Source: Acidobacteria bacterium 28-1 (GTDB lineage: Bacteria; Acidobacteriota; Blastocatellia; Pyrinomonadales; Pyrinomonadaceae). From it: 64,000 nucleotides of DNA. The notes under the pieces are model-generated. The model ran no database searches. It was not told the origin of the DNA and was given only the letters and a program-made list of their open reading frames with translations. Below are positions 7,645-52,147 of the stretch, one piece after another (the first letter of the stretch is position 1; every line of letters starts with the position of its first letter). Made by a program: the position numbers and the translations under genes. Location: assembly GCA_002050365.1 (NCBI GenBank), contig MWYZ01000070.1, forward strand, positions 1-64,000. Reading direction: 5' to 3'.

Positions 7645-7732
7645 GATAGGTTTACAATTTCCACTTTTTGAATTTTGCCGAAAATCTGCTATTTTGCATA
7701 TGAAGCCAATAATTCGGAGGTTAAGAAAATTA

Positions 7733-9352
7733 ATGTTCCCAAAATTTTTTAGAAAACTGTGCGTCTTTATTTTTTGCATCGCCGTTTTGCCGCAAATTTT
7801 GCAGGCACAGGAAACCGAAGAAACAATCGTTGCCCGCGTTCGCGTTCGCAATTTCGCCGAAATGATGCGCGTCGCGCAGGCGGGTTTGGATTTGATGGAA
7901 TACCGCGACGGCGAAGAATTGATTTTTTGGACGACTCCCAAACAGTTCGCGGAATTGCAAAAGCAGGGTTTTGCGCTTCGCGTTGACGAGCAAAAAACCT
8001 TTGAGTTGCAGCGTGGTTTGCAAACTGACACTTTCCGCGACGGTTATCGAACGGTTGAAGAAACGCGCGATTTCTTAGACCAGATGCAAGCGCGTTTTCC
8101 GAATCTGGCGGAGGTTTTTACTTACGGACAGAGTTGGGAAAAAACTAGAAATGCCAATAATGGCTACGATTTGTTCGGCGTTAAATTAACGAACAGGCAA
8201 ATCACGGGCAGTAAACCGACATTTTTTCTGCAAGCCGGAATTCACTCGCGCGAACTCGTGCCGCCGGAAATTGCCACGCGCTTCATCGAATACTTGTTGA
8301 CGAATTACGGCACAGATGCCGACGCGACTTGGCTTTTGGACGAACATCAAATCGTCGTCGTTCCAATCGTCAATCCCGACGGCAGAAAACTTGCTGAACA
8401 AAGTTTATTGAAACGCAAAAATACTAATAATACGACCGGAAACTGCACGAACATAACTTTCGGAATTGATTTGAATCGTAATTTTTCTTTTCTGTGGGGA
8501 ACGGTGAATTTGCCGACAGAGCCGCCGTGCGGCGAAACTTTTCCCGGCTTAACCGCTGGCAGCGAGCCGGAAACGCAAGCCATTGAAAATTTGGTTGATT
8601 CGCTGTTTCCAGACCAACGCGAGCCGGGCAGAACCGAACCTGCACCTCTCGATGCAACCGGCGTTTTTCTCGATATGCACTCGACGGGAAATCTGATTTT
8701 ATATCCGTGGGGACAAGACAATACGCCGCCGCCGAATCTACAGTTGCGGACGATTGCCAGAAAAATGGCTTCGTATAACGGCTATAATCCGATTCAATCA
8801 ATTCAGCTTTACCCGACGAGCGGCTCGGCGCGGGAATACGCCTACGGCGAGCGCGGCGCGGTTGGTTTAGCGATGGAAATCGGTTCAGGTTCAGGGGGGT
8901 GCGGCGGATTTTTCGCAACGTATAGTTGTTTAGACGGCGGCAGCGGCGGAGATTTCTGGAATTTGAATCGTCCCGTTTTGCTTTACTTAGCGAAAATCGC
9001 CAGAACTCCATATATGACGGGCGAAGGCGCAACGACGGAAACTTTAACGGTATCGAAAACCGGCGCGAATTCTTTCATGTTGCGGGCGCAAATCAGCGAC
9101 GCAAACAACGGCGGGCAGACAGTTTCGGCGGCGGAAGTTTATGTTGACACACCACCTTGGCGCGGTGGAACGCCCGTTCAAATGATGGCAAAAGACGGGA
9201 CGTTTAATTCGACAGTTGAATTCGCCGTCGTTGATTTGACGGTTTCGCCGGGCAGACACATGTTTTATGTGCGCGGACGGGATGCAACAAATAATTGGGG
9301 CGCAATCAAAGCCGCTTTCGCGCCGCTACCTAAGGCTAATGTGGATTTATAA
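7733..9352 (+). CDS. Secreted M14 family zinc carboxypeptidase
   Basis: About 539 residues. The start at 7733 is chosen because GGAGG lies 12 nt upstream and the signal peptide MFPKFFRKLCVFIFCIAVLP begins there; in-frame ATGs further upstream (such as 7700) would add a charged leader. Zinc ligands are in AGIHSREL (HxxE) and FLDMHSTG. Substrate-binding residues lie in NPDGRK and GIDLNRNF, and the catalytic Glu is in VGLAMEIG. A C-terminal beta-rich domain of about 100 residues follows the catalytic domain. Likely a periplasmic or secreted carboxypeptidase working with the M1 peptidase upstream. Confidence 0.88.
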   Translation: MFPKFFRKLCVFIFCIAVLPQILQAQETEETIVARVRVRNFAEMMRVAQAGLDLMEYRDGEELIFWTTPKQFAELQKQGFALRVDEQKTFELQRGLQTDTFRDGYRTVEETRDFLDQMQARFPNLAEVFTYGQSWEKTRNANNGYDLFGVKLTNRQITGSKPTFFLQAGIHSRELVPPEIATRFIEYLLTNYGTDADATWLLDEHQIVVVPIVNPDGRKLAEQSLLKRKNTNNTTGNCTNITFGIDLNRNFSFLWGTVNLPTEPPCGETFPGLTAGSEPETQAIENLVDSLFPDQREPGRTEPAPLDATGVFLDMHSTGNLILYPWGQDNTPPPNLQLRTIARKMASYNGYNPIQSIQLYPTSGSAREYAYGERGAVGLAMEIGSGSGGCGGFFATYSCLDGGSGGDFWNLNRPVLLYLAKIARTPYMTGEGATTETLTVSKTGANSFMLRAQISDANNGGQTVSAAEVYVDTPPWRGGTPVQMMAKDGTFNSTVEFAVVDLTVSPGRHMFYVRGRDATNNWGAIKAAFAPLPKANVDL

Positions 9353-39480: not shown

Positions 39481-43236
<3,756 letters not shown>

Positions 43237-43986: not shown

Positions 43987-44049
43987 TTGCCAGATTCTTT
44001 TGGCGTTGGCTTTGCTCTCTCTCAAAATGATATTCTCGAAATATCAATT

Positions 44050-45324
44050 ATGTTCAATAATTTTACCAAGCCACGCCGAGTTGTTATTACGGGTTTCGGC
44101 TGCGTTACGCCAATCGGCATCGGGCGCAAATTTTTCTGGAAAGCCTTACGCGAAGGAAAAAGCGGTGTCGGCAGAATCGAAAGTTTCGATGTTTCCGAGT
44201 CAAAAGTGAAAATTGCGGCGGAAGTTAAAAATTTCGATTGGGAAGCCGAACTCGATCCAAAAGACCGCAAGAATGTTGCGCGAACTGTTCCGCTGGCGCT
44301 GGCGGCGGCGCGTGAAGCAGTTAAAGATGCGAAAATTGAAACTGACAAACTCACTTTAACCGAAAGACAAAATTTCGGCGTGATTTTAGGGACGGGCGGC
44401 GGCGGTTTGGCGTTCACGGAAAAACAATATAGATACTGGTTCGCGGGCGAAGAAAAAAAGGCGAGTATTTACACGATTCCTGCTTCGACGCACGGCGGAT
44501 TATCTTCGGAACTCTCGATGGTTTTCGGTCTGCACGGTCTTTCGCACATTGTTTCGACCGGCTGCACAAGTTCAACCGACGCAATCGCTTACGCGGCACA
44601 GCACATTGCGCTCGGCAAGCAGGATTTTATGCTGACCGGCGGAGTTGACGCACCGCTAGCACTCGGAATTCTAAAAGCCTTCAATGTAATGACCGTTCTT
44701 ACAAACGAGTGGAATGATGAACCGAACCGCGCTTCACGTCCGTTTTCAAAAGACCGTTCTGGTATTGTATTGGGCGAAGGCGCGTGGATTTTCGTCCTTG
44801 AAAGTTTGGAAAGCGCGCACCGGCGAAAGGCGAAAATTTACGCCGAAATTAAAGGTTACGGTTCGACGTGCGATGCTTATCATCGCGTCCGTCTGGAAGA
44901 AAACGGCGTTGAGCCGGCGCGGGCGATGTCTTTAGCGATGGAAGATGCCGGAGTTTCACCCGAAACAGTTGATTATGTTAATCTGCACGGAACTTCGACG
45001 CAGTTAAATGACAAAATCGAAACTTTGAGCATCAAAAATGCCTTTGGCGCACACGCTTACAAACTTTCGACGAGCGCGACGAAATCGCAAATCGGACATC
45101 CGCAGGGCGCATCGGGCGCTGCTGGAATCGGCGCAACACTACTCGCATTAAACGAAAATATTATCGCGCCGACAATAAATCTTGACGTGCCTGACGCGGA
45201 TTGCGATTTAGACTACACACCGAATAAAGCGAAGGAAAAAGCCAACGTAAAAATCGCATTGTGCAACTGCATCGGCTTCGGCTCGAAAAATTCCGCGTTG
45301 GTTTTAGAGAAAATTAGAGTCTAA
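44050..45324 (+). CDS. Beta-ketoacyl-ACP synthase II-type (FabF-like)
   Basis: About 424 residues from ATG 44050 (MFNNFTKPRRVVITGFGCVT). Cys-His-His triad: STGCTSSTDAIAYAAQ, NLHGTSTQLND, KSQIGHPQGASGAAG. Condensing enzyme of type II fatty-acid or polyketide synthesis; no acyl carrier protein or other fab gene is adjacent, so it could be either. The stop codon TAA (45322-45324) lies within the terminal core box of the last attC site. Confidence 0.88.
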   Translation: MFNNFTKPRRVVITGFGCVTPIGIGRKFFWKALREGKSGVGRIESFDVSESKVKIAAEVKNFDWEAELDPKDRKNVARTVPLALAAAREAVKDAKIETDKLTLTERQNFGVILGTGGGGLAFTEKQYRYWFAGEEKKASIYTIPASTHGGLSSELSMVFGLHGLSHIVSTGCTSSTDAIAYAAQHIALGKQDFMLTGGVDAPLALGILKAFNVMTVLTNEWNDEPNRASRPFSKDRSGIVLGEGAWIFVLESLESAHRRKAKIYAEIKGYGSTCDAYHRVRLEENGVEPARAMSLAMEDAGVSPETVDYVNLHGTSTQLNDKIETLSIKNAFGAHAYKLSTSATKSQIGHPQGASGAAGIGATLLALNENIIAPTINLDVPDADCDLDYTPNKAKEKANVKIALCNCIGFGSKNSALVLEKIRV

Positions 45325-45432
45325 CGACCGAGTTGACGTGGGGCGAAACCGAATTCACGCAAGCCGAAAGAAACAACGCAACGTGATAAGAAAATCGCTG
45401 CCCGCGCCCTCACATCCAATGACTTGTTGGGC
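45319..45432 (-). repeat. attC site 1 (last cassette, abuts fabF)
   Basis: 114 nt. Minus-strand R'' GCCCAAC (45432-45426), R' GTTAGAC (45325-45319, perfect GTTRRRY). Stem words GACGTGGGGCGAAACC on the fabF side; the other arm is more diverged (GCCCTCACATCCAATGA). Confidence 0.88.
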
Positions 45433-45448
45433 GGAACTTCGGCAGCAC

Positions 45449-46171
45449 TCAAGTTTTATTTGCCCATTTAAATGAGCTAAGGATTTGTTTAATCGTTTCA
45501 TCCCAACCAGATTGATGTATGAAAACAAATACAACTGTTTTGTTACCGAAGGAGCGATAATAAAAATCAATGTCTTTAAACAGCAAGGTATGACTTCCCA
45601 TTTTTAAGACACCCATCGTTTGTTTCTCCCAAGTTCCATAATTCCCCGAAGTCAACGAAGCCTTTTCAAAAACACTTAGGGCTTTATTAAGTCCTTGATT
45701 CTTAATTTTTTCAGTAACTTGTTGAGAGTTTAAGTTAACGACGAATACTCTAGCTTGCAAATCTGATGTCAGACCATTACCCCAACCCTTACTTCCAACG
45801 TGAGCCGCGCAATTTTCAAATGGCAGAACGGAATTCATAACTTTTGCATCTTCTTCATCAGAGAAGCCGTTATTAAAATCAAGCTGATTTAATTCGTTGA
45901 AGTCCTGCCAGCTTAGATAGAGATTTTTTGGAGGTTCTAGCGCAGGCTTCGGCGCAAGCCAATCTTCAGGTATGTCAAACGTCGCATCATAAGGTTTGAG
46001 CCGAATAGTTCTGCCTTCAAGGAGAGAATACGGACTGTTGTTTTCAGACGAATGAGTTGCCCCGTAAGGATTTAAAGTTTTTATTTTGTCCCAAGCGAAT
46101 AAATAAATGGCTGCTGTGCCAATAGAGAATGCGATGATAGCAACCAACAAACGCTGTATGTATTTTTTCAT
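45449..46171 (-). CDS. Cassette 5 gene: secreted hypothetical protein
   Basis: 240 residues with an N-terminal signal/anchor (MKKYIQRLLVAIIAFSIGTA). A beta-rich body (RTIRLKPYDATFDIPEDWLA, LYLSWQDFNELNQ) and a C-terminal LLFKDIDFYYRSFGNKTVVF-like strand series. Not recognised. It fills its cassette almost completely (ends 17 nt before attC 1), as integron cassette genes do. Confidence 0.65.
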   Translation of the reverse strand: MKKYIQRLLVAIIAFSIGTAAIYLFAWDKIKTLNPYGATHSSENNSPYSLLEGRTIRLKPYDATFDIPEDWLAPKPALEPPKNLYLSWQDFNELNQLDFNNGFSDEEDAKVMNSVLPFENCAAHVGSKGWGNGLTSDLQARVFVVNLNSQQVTEKIKNQGLNKALSVFEKASLTSGNYGTWEKQTMGVLKMGSHTLLFKDIDFYYRSFGNKTVVFVFIHQSGWDETIKQILSSFKWANKT

Positions 46172-46242
46172 TTCAACTCCGATTGTAACAAAGAACTATT
46201 AAACTGTTATTTCTTTAGACACTGAAAACGCGAATTTGTTCC

Positions 46243-46356
46243 GCCCAACGGTTGAGATGACGTGGGGCGAAACCGCCGCCACGCCCGCCGAAAAGTAACG
46301 GACGACGTTCCAAACAAAGTCGCTGTTTCGCCCTCACGTCCATTGAATTGTTGTGC
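46243..46356 (-). repeat. attC site 2
   Basis: 114 nt. Plus-strand ends GCCCAAC (46243-46249) and GTTGTGC (46350-46356); arms GATGACGTGGGGCGAAACC and GTTTCGCCCTCACGTCC pair. Downstream of the GNAT cassette gene on the minus strand. Confidence 0.9.
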
Positions 46357-46370
46357 TGCGTGTTGGTGAG

Positions 46371-46808
46371 CTATGCTCGTTTCATCTTAAAGTGGGCATC
46401 ATCTTCGCCTTCTACAACGAAGCCTAGCCGCTCATAAAACCGCCGTGCGGGATTCACTTTCAACACTTGCAGAGTCACAAATCGCTCCTGCCGTTGAGCC
46501 TGACGAATAATTTTCAAAATGACGACACTGCCAATTCCTTTACTTTGGTGTTCAGGCAGTATTTGGATGTTGCCAATATGCGCTCTATCTTCCTTGTAAT
46601 CTACCTCAACACGCCCAATGTCGTGACCATTTAACATGATAATCTGGTTGGCATCAGGCTGAAAATGTTCCTTAAAATGGCTTTGCTGCCACGCCTCATC
46701 CCAACCCCAAGTAGCTTCGATGTAATCATACATAGTTGTGCAATGTAAGGCATACAAGAAGCCATAATCTTCTGGTGTAGCGATGCGAATGTTGATTGCA
46801 TCTTCCAT
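46371..46808 (-). CDS. Cassette 4 gene: GNAT family N-acetyltransferase
   Basis: About 145 residues from ATG 46808 (MEDAINIRIATPEDYGFLYA). A longer start would run into attC 3. Acetyl-CoA-binding motif A is IGNIQILPEHQSKGIGSVVI, followed by VTLQVLKVNPARRFYERLGF. Substrate unknown; GNAT enzymes are common cassette cargo, including antibiotic acetyltransferases, but nothing here indicates which substrate. Confidence 0.85.
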   Translation of the reverse strand: MEDAINIRIATPEDYGFLYALHCTTMYDYIEATWGWDEAWQQSHFKEHFQPDANQIIMLNGHDIGRVEVDYKEDRAHIGNIQILPEHQSKGIGSVVILKIIRQAQRQERFVTLQVLKVNPARRFYERLGFVVEGEDDAHFKMKRA

Positions 46809-46847
46809 ACGCTTTAGTTTTGCATTCGGCACCGTCGCACATAAGCA

Positions 46848-46959
46848 GCACAACGATTGAGTTGACGTGGGGCGAAACCGAATACAGACAACGTGAAATT
46901 AACCACGCAAGTTTTTAAAGAATAGCTGTTTCGCCCTCACGTCCAATGATTTGTTGGGC
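46848..46959 (-). repeat. attC site 3
   Basis: 112 nt. Plus-strand ends GCACAAC (46848-46854) and GTTGGGC (46953-46959). Conserved arms TTGACGTGGGGCGAAACC and GTTTCGCCCTCACGTCC. Confidence 0.9.
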
Positions 46960-46994
46960 GGCGGCTTCACTGGAAACGCGCCGCTTGTTTTCTT

Positions 46995-47462
46995 TCACGT
47001 TTCAACAGCGCGATTGCTTGCGCGAAAAATTTTCCAATTGATAACTGTTCCGACAAGATAGGCTAAACCGATTACCAGCGAAACCAGAGAAAACACGACT
47101 TCACGCGGTGCAACCTGCACCGATGATGTAGCTATCTGAAAGATTTGCTGAAAAACGAAGACTCCGCGAAGCGTGTAAATAGCACCTATCAACAACAAAG
47201 CTATTGTCAAAAGCGGCAACCGACGAATTACTCCTGCGCCCGAAAAAGCATACAAACCCCAGATGGTAAAAACCGCTACCAGAACTAACGTTATCAGCGC
47301 GGGAAAAGCCGAACCGGATTCTGCCGCCGTTGCCATATCTTCACCTGCGCCAAAATATCTGTAAGCGGGCGCACCGACGAAAATAATGACGAGATGCAGA
47401 AGTGCGACAACAAAGCTAAGGATGCCGCCTAATTTCAACCATTGATTTCCATTACGCATCAT
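46995..47462 (-). CDS. Cassette 3 gene: four-helix membrane protein
   Basis: 155 residues with about four membrane helices (LGGILSFVVALLHLVIIFVG, FPALITLVLVAVFTIWGLYA, LLTIALLLIGAIYTLRGVF, VVFSLVSLVIGLAYLVGTVI). No known motif. The start codon lies 16 nt from the upstream attC 4, typical of a compact cassette. Confidence 0.7.
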   Translation of the reverse strand: MMRNGNQWLKLGGILSFVVALLHLVIIFVGAPAYRYFGAGEDMATAAESGSAFPALITLVLVAVFTIWGLYAFSGAGVIRRLPLLTIALLLIGAIYTLRGVFVFQQIFQIATSSVQVAPREVVFSLVSLVIGLAYLVGTVINWKIFRASNRAVET

Positions 47463-47477
47463 AAGCTACCGATAGCC

Positions 47478-47591
47478 GCCCAACGGTTGAGATGACGTGG
47501 GGCGAAACCGCCAACACGCAACTCCGAGTTTAACGGACATCTTCGATAACAAAGTCGCTGTTTCGCCCTCACGTCCATTGAATTGTTATAC
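47478..47591 (-). repeat. attC site 4
   Basis: 114 nt. Plus-strand ends GCCCAAC (47478-47484) and GTTATAC (47585-47591); arms GATGACGTGGGGCGAAACC and GTTTCGCCCTCACGTCC. Central part nearly identical to site 5. Confidence 0.9.
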
Positions 47592-47605
47592 AGCATTTTA
47601 GCAAT

Positions 47606-48382
47606 CTATGACGCGCTCCGGTCACGCAACCTGCGCTCAAATTCGTTTAAGTCAGACTTCTTAGACAAATTTACCAACTCATCTTTTAACTTCGGATACT
47701 CAGACTCAGAAACTTTGAGAAAGTCCGCAATTACGTGCAAATAGTCGTTTTCGTGCGGATGACTAACATCTATGTAAGCCCTTAAATACGCTTCTCGATT
47801 ATCAGGGCTTTTGGCTCGAATCTGGTCAGCTATCCTCGCAGATTGTTCTGCTATCCTTGCAGATTGTTCTGCGGCAATTTGAGTTTTTGATTCTTCCTCC
47901 ACAAATGTATTCATTTGTTCGGGCGTAAAATTCCATCCTTTATTTTGAAGAAGACTTAGTAGTTTTTCGTCAGCTCCGTTTTCGTGTCTCAATTCACTCC
48001 GCGCGAAGTCTCTCACGAGTTGAAAATCGGGTGAACTTAAAAACTCAACTTTCTTTGCGTCGGAAGCCCTATCCTCGTAAACCTTATAGCCAATGTAAAC
48101 GACAAATGCGATAACGGCAATGACAATAATTCCTATGACGAGTTGAATAAGTCCATAAAAAAGATTGGTTATTGTGCCGGCGGGTGTCGCACAGATAAGC
48201 CAAATCAGCCCAACGATAATGAGACTAGCTATCGCACCATACCATTTCTGCCGGTCAATTTCTTCGGGAGTAACAACGAAACCGCATTGTGGGCATTTGC
48301 GCGTTGTTTGGGTTACGCGCATCTTTAGCTGCAAAGTCGTTCTACAGTTTGGACAAGTCCAGAAGTATTTGTAGCCAGCCAT
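47606..48382 (-). CDS. Cassette 2 gene: zinc-ribbon membrane protein
   Basis: 258 residues. N-terminal zinc ribbon (CPNCRTTL ... KCPQCGF), two membrane helices (WYGAIASLIIVGLIWLICAT, LVIGIIVIAVIAFVVYIGYK), then a helical cytoplasmic part with a tandem heptapeptide (EQSARIA twice, then DQIRA). Not recognised. Domain order resembles the small zinc-ribbon membrane protein at 17431 but without clear homology. Confidence 0.7.
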   Translation of the reverse strand: MAGYKYFWTCPNCRTTLQLKMRVTQTTRKCPQCGFVVTPEEIDRQKWYGAIASLIIVGLIWLICATPAGTITNLFYGLIQLVIGIIVIAVIAFVVYIGYKVYEDRASDAKKVEFLSSPDFQLVRDFARSELRHENGADEKLLSLLQNKGWNFTPEQMNTFVEEESKTQIAAEQSARIAEQSARIADQIRAKSPDNREAYLRAYIDVSHPHENDYLHVIADFLKVSESEYPKLKDELVNLSKKSDLNEFERRLRDRSAS

Positions 48383-48444
48383 AAAAATCTAGAGTGAAAG
48401 TTTAGCCATCACAACTTTTCCTAATCGTCTGCAACGTGAGAGCT

Positions 48445-48556
48445 GTATAACGGCTGAGATGACGTGGGGCGAAACCGCCAACACGCAACTCCGAGTTAAC
48501 GGACAACGTGATAATAAAGTCGCTGTTTCGCCCTCACGTCCATTGAATTGTTGGAC
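48445..48556 (-). repeat. attC site 5 (first cassette)
   Basis: 112 nt. Plus-strand ends GTATAAC (48445-48451) and GTTGGAC (48550-48556); arms GATGACGTGGGGCGAAACC and GTTTCGCCCTCACGTCC. Confidence 0.9.
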
Positions 48557-48581
48557 AGCGCGTTGATTTAAACGAGTTACT

Positions 48582-48992
48582 TTATATTTTGTCATTTGAA
48601 CCAACCCAAATTTCAAGAACAACTTCGTGCTGATTTTTGCCGCCCCACGTTCTCTTTGGTTTTTGAAACACATACTTTAGTTTAACGCGCCTGCCAACAA
48701 TATAGGCTTCATCTTTTCCTTCGCGTGTCCAACGAGTTTTTTCTTGTCCATCGTCAATTTCAAATTCAGGATAATCATTATGCCCGCTCATATATACGCG
48801 AGAAATAACGCCTTCAATCGTATGAACAGGAATTACGTTTTCCTCAATAGCACGCCACCAATCGACAGAACCAAACAAAGCGTGTTCAGTAATAAAACCA
48901 TTTTCTTTGCTTTCGAGGCAAGCCTTTTGAATCAAGCCAATTCTACGATGGTCTTGTTTCAAGTCGTAGATTTTCACAAGTTCATCGGTCAT
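48582..48992 (-). CDS. Cassette 1 gene: hypothetical protein
   Basis: About 136 residues from ATG 48992 (MTDELVKIYDLKQDHRRIGL); a TTG at 49019 would overlap the boundary core site GTTGGAC. Contains ALFGSVDWWRAIEENVIPVH, TIEGVISRVYMSGHNDYPEF, YIVGRRVKLKYVFQKPKRTW. Looks like a compact beta-rich soluble protein. Not recognised. First cassette, so nearest to any upstream promoter. Confidence 0.6.
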   Translation of the reverse strand: MTDELVKIYDLKQDHRRIGLIQKACLESKENGFITEHALFGSVDWWRAIEENVIPVHTIEGVISRVYMSGHNDYPEFEIDDGQEKTRWTREGKDEAYIVGRRVKLKYVFQKPKRTWGGKNQHEVVLEIWVGSNDKI

Positions 48993-49020
48993 ATGCTTAA
49001 ACAAGAGAAAGATGTCCAAC

Positions 49021-49348
49021 TTTGTATTCTGCTGAATTAAAGTTTTCTTAGACCGAATTTTTATAATGCTTTTTTAATCGAAAGTCAATAAAAAGTTTGA
49101 TTTTAACTGATGATTGAGCTATCTTCGTGGCTAAACAAAAATTCTGCCTAAATTTTTATGCCGAATTATCAAAACTGTTTGATGCTGTCCAAAATATGAT
49201 GGGCGTCCAATTCGCTTTATCACCGAAGAAAAACTTTCTGCCAAAACCTTTTACGGTTGCCTTGCGTATCAACAAAATCCAAAATCAGATAAAGCCAAAC
49301 GAAAAGTTTGTATTTTCTATTTCCCAAAATTTACAAGGAGTACTAGCG
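49021..49348. other. Region between cassette array and M16 gene
   Basis: No attI-adjacent integrase gene is present. 49127-49348 is open in the M16 frame but has no signal-peptide-like start and looks like 5' leader or relic. AAGGAG at 49335-49340 positions translation at 49349. AT-rich patches near 49060-49110 could hold promoters in either direction. Confidence 0.4.
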
Positions 49349-52147
49349 ATGGATTTTAAGAGAACAATTGTTTTTCTGCTCGCCTTTGTTTTACTTATGA
49401 CAACCACGACGAGTTACGCACAGACGAATAGCGCGGACAAACTGCCGCCGATCAAGTATCAGGAATTCACTTTGCCGAACGGTTTGCGCGTGATTATGCA
49501 CGTTGACAAATCCACGCCAATTGTCGCCGTCAACGTTTGGTATCACGTCGGCTCGAAAAACGAAGTCGCCGGGCGCACCGGATTTGCTCATCTGTTTGAG
49601 CATATGATGTTTCAAGGCTCGAAGAATTATGATGCCGATTATTTTACGCCGCTGCAGGAAGCGGGCGCGAATCTGAATGGCTCGACTAATCCCGACCGAA
49701 CGAATTACTGGGAAGTCGTGCCGTCGAATTTTTTGGAAACGGCTCTATTTCTGGAAGCCGACCGGATGGGCGGACTGCTCGAAGCGATGACGCAGGAAAA
49801 ACTCGACAACCAGCGCGATGTAGTGAAAAATGAGCGTCGGCAGAATTACGACAACCAGCCTTACGGCACGGCAGCCGAAAAAATTGCCGCGCTGATGTTT
49901 CCGAAAACGCATCCGTATAGCTGGACGACTATTGGCTCACTCGACGATTTAACCGCCGCTTCGATAGACGACGTTAAAGCGTTTTTCCGCGAATATTATG
50001 TGCCGAACAATGCCTCCTTGGTGATTGCGGGCGATTTCGACCCGAAGGAAGCGCAGAAGTTAGTCGAAAAACATTTCGGCTCGGTTGCGAAAGGCGCGAC
50101 GATTAAACGCCCGAATCCGCCGATGCCGAAGCTCGACAAAGAGATTCGCGTTCAATACGAAGATAATGTTCAATTGCCGCGTCTTTTTATGGGCTGGCAC
50201 ACTGTTCCGCGTTTTGACAAAGACGAAGCGGCGCTCAGCATCCTGGGTGGAATTTTGTCGGCGGGCAGAGGCTCGCGTCTGCAAAGCAATCTGGTTTACG
50301 GCAAACAAATCGCGCAGGACGCTTCGGCTTTTAATTCGGCACAGGAAATCGCCGGACGCTTTCAAATAGCTTCAACTGCGCGTCCCGGAAAGACGCTGGA
50401 AGAAATTGAAAAAGAAATAAACGCGGAAATCGAGCGTATCAAACAAGAACCGCCGACGGTTGACGAAATCAATCGTTCGTTAAATCAAATCGAATCTTCA
50501 TTCATTTACAGTATGCAATCGGTTGGTGGTTTCGGCGGCAAATCCGACCAGCTTAACAGCTACGCAACTTTCACCGGCAAACCTGATTATTTTCTAACGG
50601 ATTTGGAACGTTACCGTAAAGTTACGCCCGCCGATGTGCAACGCGTCGCCAATGCTTATTTGATTGATAAGCGTCTGGTGATGAGTTTTGTGCCGCGACC
50701 GAAAGATAAGGAAATGCCGAAAATGAATGCGGCGGCAAATCAGCAGACCTCGGTCAGCAAAAAAGAAAAGGCAAAGATTGACAGCTCAAAGTTGCCGAAG
50801 CCGACGGCGAATCCGAACTTCACTTTTCCGAAGGTGGAAAAAACTAAACTCTCGAACGGTTTGGAAGTTTGGCTGGTCAAGCAAGCAGAGCTTCCGCTGG
50901 TGACGATGAATATGGTTTTCAAAACCGGCACGACCGTCGACCCGCAAAATTTGAGCGGTTTGGGCAACACGACTTCCACGTTGCTCGACGACGGCACGAA
51001 AACTCGTTCGGCGGTGGACATCGCCAACGAAGTTCAATCCATCGGCGCACAGCTTTCGACCGGCGCGGACGACGATTCCTCCGGCGTGAGGATGTTGACG
51101 CTGACCAAACATTTGGATAAAGCGTTGGACATTTATGCGGATGTGATTCAAAACGCCGAATTCCCCGAAAAAGAAGTCGAAACTTATCGCAGTCGTGCGC
51201 TCGTTTCGCTCAAACAACGCCGCGATAATGCGAACATCGTCGCCAACCTCGTCTACAATCGAGTTCTCTACGGCGACGCGCATCCTTACGGCGCAATTTT
51301 AACCGAAACCTCCGTTAATGCGATTAAACGCGATGATTTGAAAAAGTATTACTCGACTTATTACCGCCCAAATAACGCGGTTTTAATTGTCGTCGGCGAT
51401 GCTGATTTGAAAACGCTGACTCCGAAGCTCGAAGCGAAATTCAAGGATTGGAACGCGGGCGAAATCACGGCGATGACTTTGCCGAACGCTCCCGTGCGCG
51501 ACAAGGCTGCGATTTACGTCGTTGACAAACCGGGCGCGGCGCAATCGGTCATCAGCATCGGACAAGTCGGCGTGTCGCGTGACAATCCCGATTATTTCCC
51601 GCTGCAAGTGATGAACACGATTCTCGGCAGCGGCTTTACTTCGCGCATCAATATGAATTTGCGCGAAGACAAAGGCTACAGCTACGGAGCGCGTTCCGGC
51701 TTTTCCTACCGGCGCGGCGCGGGACCGTTTACGGCTTCGGCGGGCGTGCAAACCGCCGTTACGAAAGAATCAGTGATAGAATTTTTGAAGGAAATTCGCG
51801 GCATTCGCGGCGAGATTCCAGTCACGGCGGCGGAACTCGAATACAACAAACAAAGTTTGGTTCGGCGTCTTCCGGCGGGCTTTGAAACGGTTGACCAAAT
51901 CGCTTCGCAACTCGCCAACTCGGTCATCTACAATCTGCCCGACAATTATTTCACCGATTATGCCGCTCGCGTCAACGCCGTCACTTTGGAAGACGTGAAC
52001 CGCGTTGCCAACAAATATCTGACACCGGATAAATTGGCAATCGTCGTCGTCGGCGACCGAAAAACGATTGAATCGGGCTTGAAGGCAATTGAAGGATTGG
52101 ACGATTCGATTATCTATCTCGACCCAGAAGGTAATACAATTCAATAA
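49349..52147 (+). CDS. Secreted M16 family zinc peptidase (two-domain)
   Basis: About 932 residues from ATG 49349 (AAGGAG 8 nt upstream; signal MDFKRTIVFLLAFVLLMTTT). The inverted zinc motif HLFEH lies in GRTGFAHLFEHMMFQGS, with the downstream Glu in NERRQNYDNQPYG. Two pairs of M16 domains: the N-terminal half is active, while the second (KLSNGLEVWLVKQAELPLVT, GLGNTTSTLLDDG) lacks HxxEH, as usual in pitrilysin-like proteases. Likely periplasmic peptide degradation. Confidence 0.9.
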   Translation: MDFKRTIVFLLAFVLLMTTTTSYAQTNSADKLPPIKYQEFTLPNGLRVIMHVDKSTPIVAVNVWYHVGSKNEVAGRTGFAHLFEHMMFQGSKNYDADYFTPLQEAGANLNGSTNPDRTNYWEVVPSNFLETALFLEADRMGGLLEAMTQEKLDNQRDVVKNERRQNYDNQPYGTAAEKIAALMFPKTHPYSWTTIGSLDDLTAASIDDVKAFFREYYVPNNASLVIAGDFDPKEAQKLVEKHFGSVAKGATIKRPNPPMPKLDKEIRVQYEDNVQLPRLFMGWHTVPRFDKDEAALSILGGILSAGRGSRLQSNLVYGKQIAQDASAFNSAQEIAGRFQIASTARPGKTLEEIEKEINAEIERIKQEPPTVDEINRSLNQIESSFIYSMQSVGGFGGKSDQLNSYATFTGKPDYFLTDLERYRKVTPADVQRVANAYLIDKRLVMSFVPRPKDKEMPKMNAAANQQTSVSKKEKAKIDSSKLPKPTANPNFTFPKVEKTKLSNGLEVWLVKQAELPLVTMNMVFKTGTTVDPQNLSGLGNTTSTLLDDGTKTRSAVDIANEVQSIGAQLSTGADDDSSGVRMLTLTKHLDKALDIYADVIQNAEFPEKEVETYRSRALVSLKQRRDNANIVANLVYNRVLYGDAHPYGAILTETSVNAIKRDDLKKYYSTYYRPNNAVLIVVGDADLKTLTPKLEAKFKDWNAGEITAMTLPNAPVRDKAAIYVVDKPGAAQSVISIGQVGVSRDNPDYFPLQVMNTILGSGFTSRINMNLREDKGYSYGARSGFSYRRGAGPFTASAGVQTAVTKESVIEFLKEIRGIRGEIPVTAAELEYNKQSLVRRLPAGFETVDQIASQLANSVIYNLPDNYFTDYAARVNAVTLEDVNRVANKYLTPDKLAIVVVGDRKTIESGLKAIEGLDDSIIYLDPEGNTIQ

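Follow-up and report, generated by a model that had tools for sequence, protein, structure and literature searches.

An integron platform with a putative promoter and attI, and no adjacent integrase gene, in a soil acidobacterium

A 64,000-nt stretch of the genome of Acidobacteria bacterium 28-1 (assembly GCA_002050365.1, contig MWYZ01000070.1, positions 1 to 64,000; hereafter the window) carries five integron cassettes preceded by a 159-bp leader, in which a predicted cassette promoter (Pc), an attI site and a 28-bp palindrome can be recognised and which has no integrase gene (intI) beside it. We consider it probable that this locus is an intI-less integron platform, one of a dispersed set supplied with cassettes by an integron integrase (IntI) acting in trans. 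The usual picture is of one platform per genome with intI beside attI, and arrays without intI are mostly seen as degraded remains.

The platform consists of the palindrome, the predicted Pc, attI and five cassettes, set between a fabF gene and a gene for an M16 peptidase, and similar platforms are dispersed through the genome of this soil acidobacterium and through its genus. An IntI encoded elsewhere in the genome would insert circular cassettes in trans at the platform attI, by attC x attI recombination at G/TT (the slash marks the joining point), and Pc would transcribe the first of them. From the leader, the exact boundaries, the dispersal and the syntenic intI-less platforms with unrelated cassettes, all legible in the genome sequences, we infer the action in trans, the activity of Pc and their application to the window platform.

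Five cassettes behind a promoter-attI leader

The array consists of five attC sites and five minus-strand cassettes and fills the gap between fabF and the M16 peptidase gene (Table 1). The attC sites, all on the minus strand, measure 114, 114, 112, 114 and 112 nt in order and have RYYYAAC-like and GTTRRRY-like ends, with the stem GACGTGGGGCGAAACC when read on the plus strand. The AAC/GTT core and a 15-bp L''/L' stem with one extrahelical A are kept in all five, while the outer R-box bases vary. Folded on the recombining (plus) strand, four of the five gave hairpins with z between -1.7 and -3.2 against shuffles; the site at 45319-45432, where z was +0.5, is also the one with a changed L'' arm. 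No Rfam family was matched in a scan of the window.

Both ends of a circular cassette derive from one attC, so that the start of an inserted cassette is the reverse complement of its own R'' end. Such matches, of 8, 10, 10, 10 and 12 nt (50 in total), were found in the five cassettes, and the true pairing of starts and attC sites is the unique best among the 120 possible. This pairing is the best evidence for real cassettes that is independent of any attC model. The five attC sites of 112-114 nt proposed in the original prediction, made from the letters of this stretch, are thus borne out by their exact positions, ends and stem, by model matches across the genome and by the 120-pairing test. 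The five minus-strand cassettes that they were said to punctuate have matching ends in every case, and the proposed span of 45319-49020 proved exact, 49020 being the G of G/TT at the first cassette.

The leader lies directly upstream of the first cassette (49015-49173, minus strand). On another contig of the same genome, C17, the stretch that separates attI from the start codon of a broken intI matches it at 93% identity (alignment score 258; shuffles reached no more than 31), and the homology stops 3 bp before the intI start there. We label contigs of the window genome (G000) with C-numbers, C23 being the window contig, and genomes of relatives with other G-numbers. Towards the cassettes, the leader presents in turn the palindrome, TTGACT-N17-TATAAA, the word ATTCGGTCTAA and TAATTCAGCAGAATACAAAG/TT, where the cassettes begin. 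The palindrome is nearly confined to leaders (7 of its 8 places in the window genome) and is perhaps an integrase-binding or second recombination site. As a side observation, the word AATTCGG(C/T)ATAA or a close variant occurs about four times per leader (for instance within 49018-49167), as two inverted copies in the palindrome and as single copies past the -10 box and in attI; these repeats may be integrase-binding arms.

In all, 42 leaders were inspected, of which 36 stand without intI; attC sites of the same orientation follow 25 of these 36. The predicted promoter is assigned by consensus and conservation and points towards the cassettes; with at most 2 mismatches it recurs in 30 of the 36 intI-less leaders, when shuffles gave an expectation of 4.7 and a maximum of 8. 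The attI core is present with 0-1 mismatch on C17, C23, C50, C67 and C63 and with 2 on C11, and a reversed-pattern control gave 0. At the window locus, attI is recognised both by its sequence and by the cassette boundary. Since the same leader directly adjoins an intact intI in four genomes of the genus (G001, G003, G004 and G006) and in two others of the family (G020 and G127), we take it to be Pc plus attI. No leader could be detected next to the intact intI of G005, G007 or G008.

Because attI, a consensus Pc and the palindrome are all present in the leader, the locus is a platform and not bare attC debris. It lacks the intI adjacent to attI that would make a complete integron, and the window contig gave no TIGR02249 match. 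The locus had originally been labelled a cluster of attC sites lacking an integron integrase (CALIN), a name that fits by definition, with five attC sites and no adjacent intI, and is incomplete, as the attI, Pc and intI-side palindrome at 49015-49173 were overlooked. The accompanying statement that no integrase gene is nearby holds only locally, there being no IntI on the contig; the genome has an intact intI on C72 and the broken one on C17.

Table 1. Coordinates of the array, its leader and the neighbouring genes in the window
Feature	Position	Strand	Details
fabF-like beta-ketoacyl synthase, left neighbour	43987..45324	+	adjoins M16 gene without array in G003 and G004
attC of cassette 1	45319..45432	-	L'' arm degenerate; R' end overlaps fabF stop codon (45324)
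Cassette 1 (last)	45325..46248	-	open reading frame (ORF) 45449-46171, 240 aa, N-terminal hydrophobic segment, without family
attC of cassette 2	46243..46356	-	repeat comparison, covariance model, folding
Cassette 2	46249..46853	-	GNAT acetyltransferase (PF00583, 44 bits)
attC of cassette 3	46848..46959	-	repeat comparison, covariance model, folding
Cassette 3	46854..47483	-	ORF 46995-47462, 155-aa membrane protein, DUF2569-like (below cut-off)
attC of cassette 4	47478..47591	-	repeat comparison, covariance model, folding
Cassette 4	47484..48450	-	ORF 47606-48382, 258 aa
attC of cassette 5	48445..48556	-	repeat comparison, covariance model, folding
Cassette 5 (first, attI-proximal)	48451..49019	-	ORF 48582-49019, 145 aa, without family match
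attI core	49018..49039	-	TAATTCAGCAGAATACAAAG/TT; cassettes joined after G49020
Predicted cassette promoter Pc	49060..49088	-	TTGACT (49088-49083), 17-nt spacer, TATAAA (49065-49060)
28-bp palindrome	49140..49167	-	AATTCGGCATA-AAAATT-TAGGCAGAATT (11+6+11), intI-side end of leader
Peptidase M16 gene, right neighbour	49352..52147	+	

Related platforms in the genome, genus and family

A covariance model built from the same five window sites found 84 attC sites in the genome, the window's five included (E at most 2.2e-5), in 26 clusters on 22 contigs. Some of these matches lie directly beside the intact and the broken IntI, and most sit in arrays with cassette-like spacing. The search for the same attC type elsewhere in the genome, which had been proposed as a check, thus succeeded, and the repeats do not occur widely away from cassettes. 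The companion search for intI returned the intact gene on C72 (454 bits), the broken one on C17, which has both a frameshift and an in-frame stop, and fragments on C101 and C29. The C72 IntI is 57-59% identical to the integrase type that accompanies the window-type leader, and its attI is different. We also observed that this intact intI lies near an apparent tRNA-Lys gene (L001, about 1140-1209 and 1501-2433) and that its short attI, CGGTATAATAACTAG/TT, resembles some attI variants of dispersed leaders (CGGTATAATACAAAG/TT).

Leaders were found on C17, C23 (the window), C50 (two), C67, C63 and C11, and on C73 without attI. The leader on C11 (L053, 6630-6679) has no Pc, its palindrome lying directly against attI; it is nevertheless followed by two cassettes, the first of which resembles the first cassette of C50 (85%). 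Near-identical cassettes (93-96%) were also noticed in different arrays of one genome (G000:C109:14492 and C35:53302) and in two species (G000:C94:2028 and G002:C117:67481).

The genomes compared, the window genome included, are fragmented drafts, in which some platforms reach contig ends. The attC model found up to 94 sites per genome in relatives. Within the genus, the number of leader matches in a genome rises to 19 (G004), with at most one leader beside an intact intI. In the wider family, leaders occur in 16 of 119 genomes and 7 of 29 genera, and G127, G053 and G046 have intI-less leaders followed by attC.

These platforms allow the question of cassette gain to be approached. For the 24 intI-less platforms with a first attC, the start of the first cassette matches its own R'' over a mean of 6.7 nt, compared with a mean of 3.2 and a maximum of 4.5 in 2000 re-pairings of the same platforms; most of these first cassettes were therefore joined at those attI by integron recombination. 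In addition, several intI-less platforms have syntenic counterparts in other species; the flanks share 73-82% identity, and none of these platforms has an integrase: C50 with G004:C79 and G006:C38, C67 with G002:C117, G001:C242 with G004:C250 and G003:C150, G002:C72 with G004:C287, and G003:C174 with G007:C208. In the first three sets the flanks are 77-82% identical up to the leader, and no similarity was found among those of their cassettes that could be compared. One of the C50 cassettes matches a G002 cassette at 93.8% identity over 962 bp, whereas the fabF genes of the two genomes are only 79% identical, which indicates recent capture or exchange. The simplest reading of these comparisons would be that cassettes were captured while the platforms had no integrase of their own, by an IntI acting in trans.

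On another aspect, the right flanks past the arrays of G000:C67 (L052) and G001:C242 (L156) are 81% identical over 2440 bp while their left flanks fall into separate syntenic groups, so that the two platforms have been rearranged with each other.

Competing explanations and the history of the locus

Several points weigh against capture in trans. Rearrangements swapping whole arrays could partly explain the cassette differences, and one such case was seen. The cognate integrase of the window genome is the disrupted one on C17, and the C72 enzyme, with its different attI and only 57-59% identity, may or may not act on the window platform. No intact intI was found in the 86%-complete assembly of G002. 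Finally, the window platform has no ortholog with both leader and array, and capture in trans would be extended to it by analogy with the other platforms.

The strongest competitor, which we consider unlikely though well short of negligible, holds that a complete integron between fabF and the M16 gene lost intI by deletion and that the array has only decayed since. The window leader is indeed nearest to that of the C17 intI, and the last attC (45319-45432) is degenerate. Loss of intI has left traces elsewhere: G002:C62 corresponds to the intI locus of G004:C253 without intI, and remnants of the gene lie beside the leaders of C73 (first codons), G004:C17 (first 30 codons) and G004:C209 (an internal piece). 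However, the 70 bp next to the window leader yielded no significant intI remnant (alignment p about 0.06-0.16), Pc and attI are intact, and other intI-less platforms kept gaining cassettes.

Serial insertion at a chance G/TT beside fabF by a distant IntI (off-target sites of the attG type), leaving a bare CALIN, is very improbable here. It is one proposed origin of CALINs (PMC8618304), IntI is encoded elsewhere in this genome, and other clusters in the genome may have arisen in this way. A chance site would not, however, supply a 159-bp attI/Pc leader at 93% identity, and in G003 and G004 fabF lies next to M16 with an ordinary gap holding neither leader nor array. Bare off-target insertion at the window locus was rejected, being contradicted by the leader. 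Equally hard to credit is that the leader is an ordinary dispersed repeat, akin to a miniature inverted-repeat transposable element (MITE), that lies beside cassettes by chance: it is multi-copy, has a palindromic end and in some copies lacks a detectable attC, but several intact integrons have it between intI and their first cassette, cassettes begin exactly at its G/TT, and attC follows so many of the intI-less copies in the same orientation.

The intI-less platform served in trans could have entered the gap between fabF and M16 as a complete integron that lost intI there or by copying of the Pc-attI unit; both are possible. G006 has attC sites next to fabF, oriented as in the window and with no leader detected (G006:C239 (L181), 7706-8403); the insertion may thus predate the window species, or the same place may have served on two occasions. 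The neighbours fabF, M16, gyrB and ruvB are chromosomal and argue against a mobile integron borne on a transposon or plasmid, although transposon ends were not searched for.

Copying of the unit is suggested by G003:C150, which has two tandem leaders. The second begins exactly at AAAG/TT of the first attI and matches the intI-side leader of G003:C184 without a difference over 148 nt, as if the promoter-attI unit itself could move. In G004:C253 and G008:C615 a leader begins at G/TT of an attC R'. We tentatively propose, as a serious possibility that we would rate at somewhat below even, that IntI recombination at G/TT takes place between attI and either the palindrome, a further attI or an attC, so that a promoter and docking cassette devoid of attC spreads and seeds integrase-less integrons. 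These footprints are three cases in draft assemblies and fall short of proof.

As to the cargo, the ORF of cassette 5 starts with TTG as listed, a later ATG being the likely start, and that of cassette 2 probably begins at an ATG (46371-46808; the listed ORF runs to 46853). The cassette 4 protein has a zinc-ribbon-like N-terminus and hydrophobic segments, with family matches below threshold. Cassette 1 has a counterpart in a different array of a congener (78% identity over 804 bp). Defence-system models matched none of the five cargo proteins. Elsewhere in the window, an in-frame intein interrupts gyrB (39517-43236, plus strand) after GDSAGG. The intein contains an HNH-like stretch and is matched by Pfam Intein_splicing (76 bits, residues 440-866); the Toprim match resumes at 867.

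Comparison with known integrons

In an Acidobacteriota genus and some other genera of its family, genomes hold from several to about 19 docking sites of promoter and attI; most of these have no intI, and several occupy conserved places with different cargo. If IntI does serve them in trans, arrays that lack intI can be functional platforms, whose attI the usual detection software misses. Two questions become testable, the activity of such arrays and the mobility of the attI-promoter unit. CALINs, the loss of intI and the mobilisation of CALIN cassettes in trans are already established (PMC8618304, PMC9668308, PMC12444791). Our search, which covered the literature outside most subscription journals, found no account of many intI-less attI and Pc platforms in one genome.

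The window locus resembles the CALIN class of IntegronFinder (PMC9024848, PMC8618304) in having two or more attC sites with cassettes and no intI next to them, and differs from it by retaining attI and Pc as well as the palindrome on the intI side. Outside class 1, attI goes undetected by IntegronFinder (PMC9024848), so that such platforms would be filed as CALINs unnoticed. With the sedentary chromosomal integrons of the Vibrio and Xanthomonas type, the locus shares a chromosomal location, one homogeneous attC type and an attI with Pc upstream of the first cassette; here, in contrast, there is no intI at the locus, cassettes are few and attI platforms are many per genome. In Xanthomonas, intI-less arrays occupy conserved loci, at which the accessible part of the account describes no attI (PMC12444791). 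Lastly, recombination between two attI sites by IntI was demonstrated in the laboratory (Escudero et al. 2016, PMC4792948), and the same reaction may have left a natural footprint in G003:C150, where a 146-bp Pc-attI unit was apparently inserted into a second attI.

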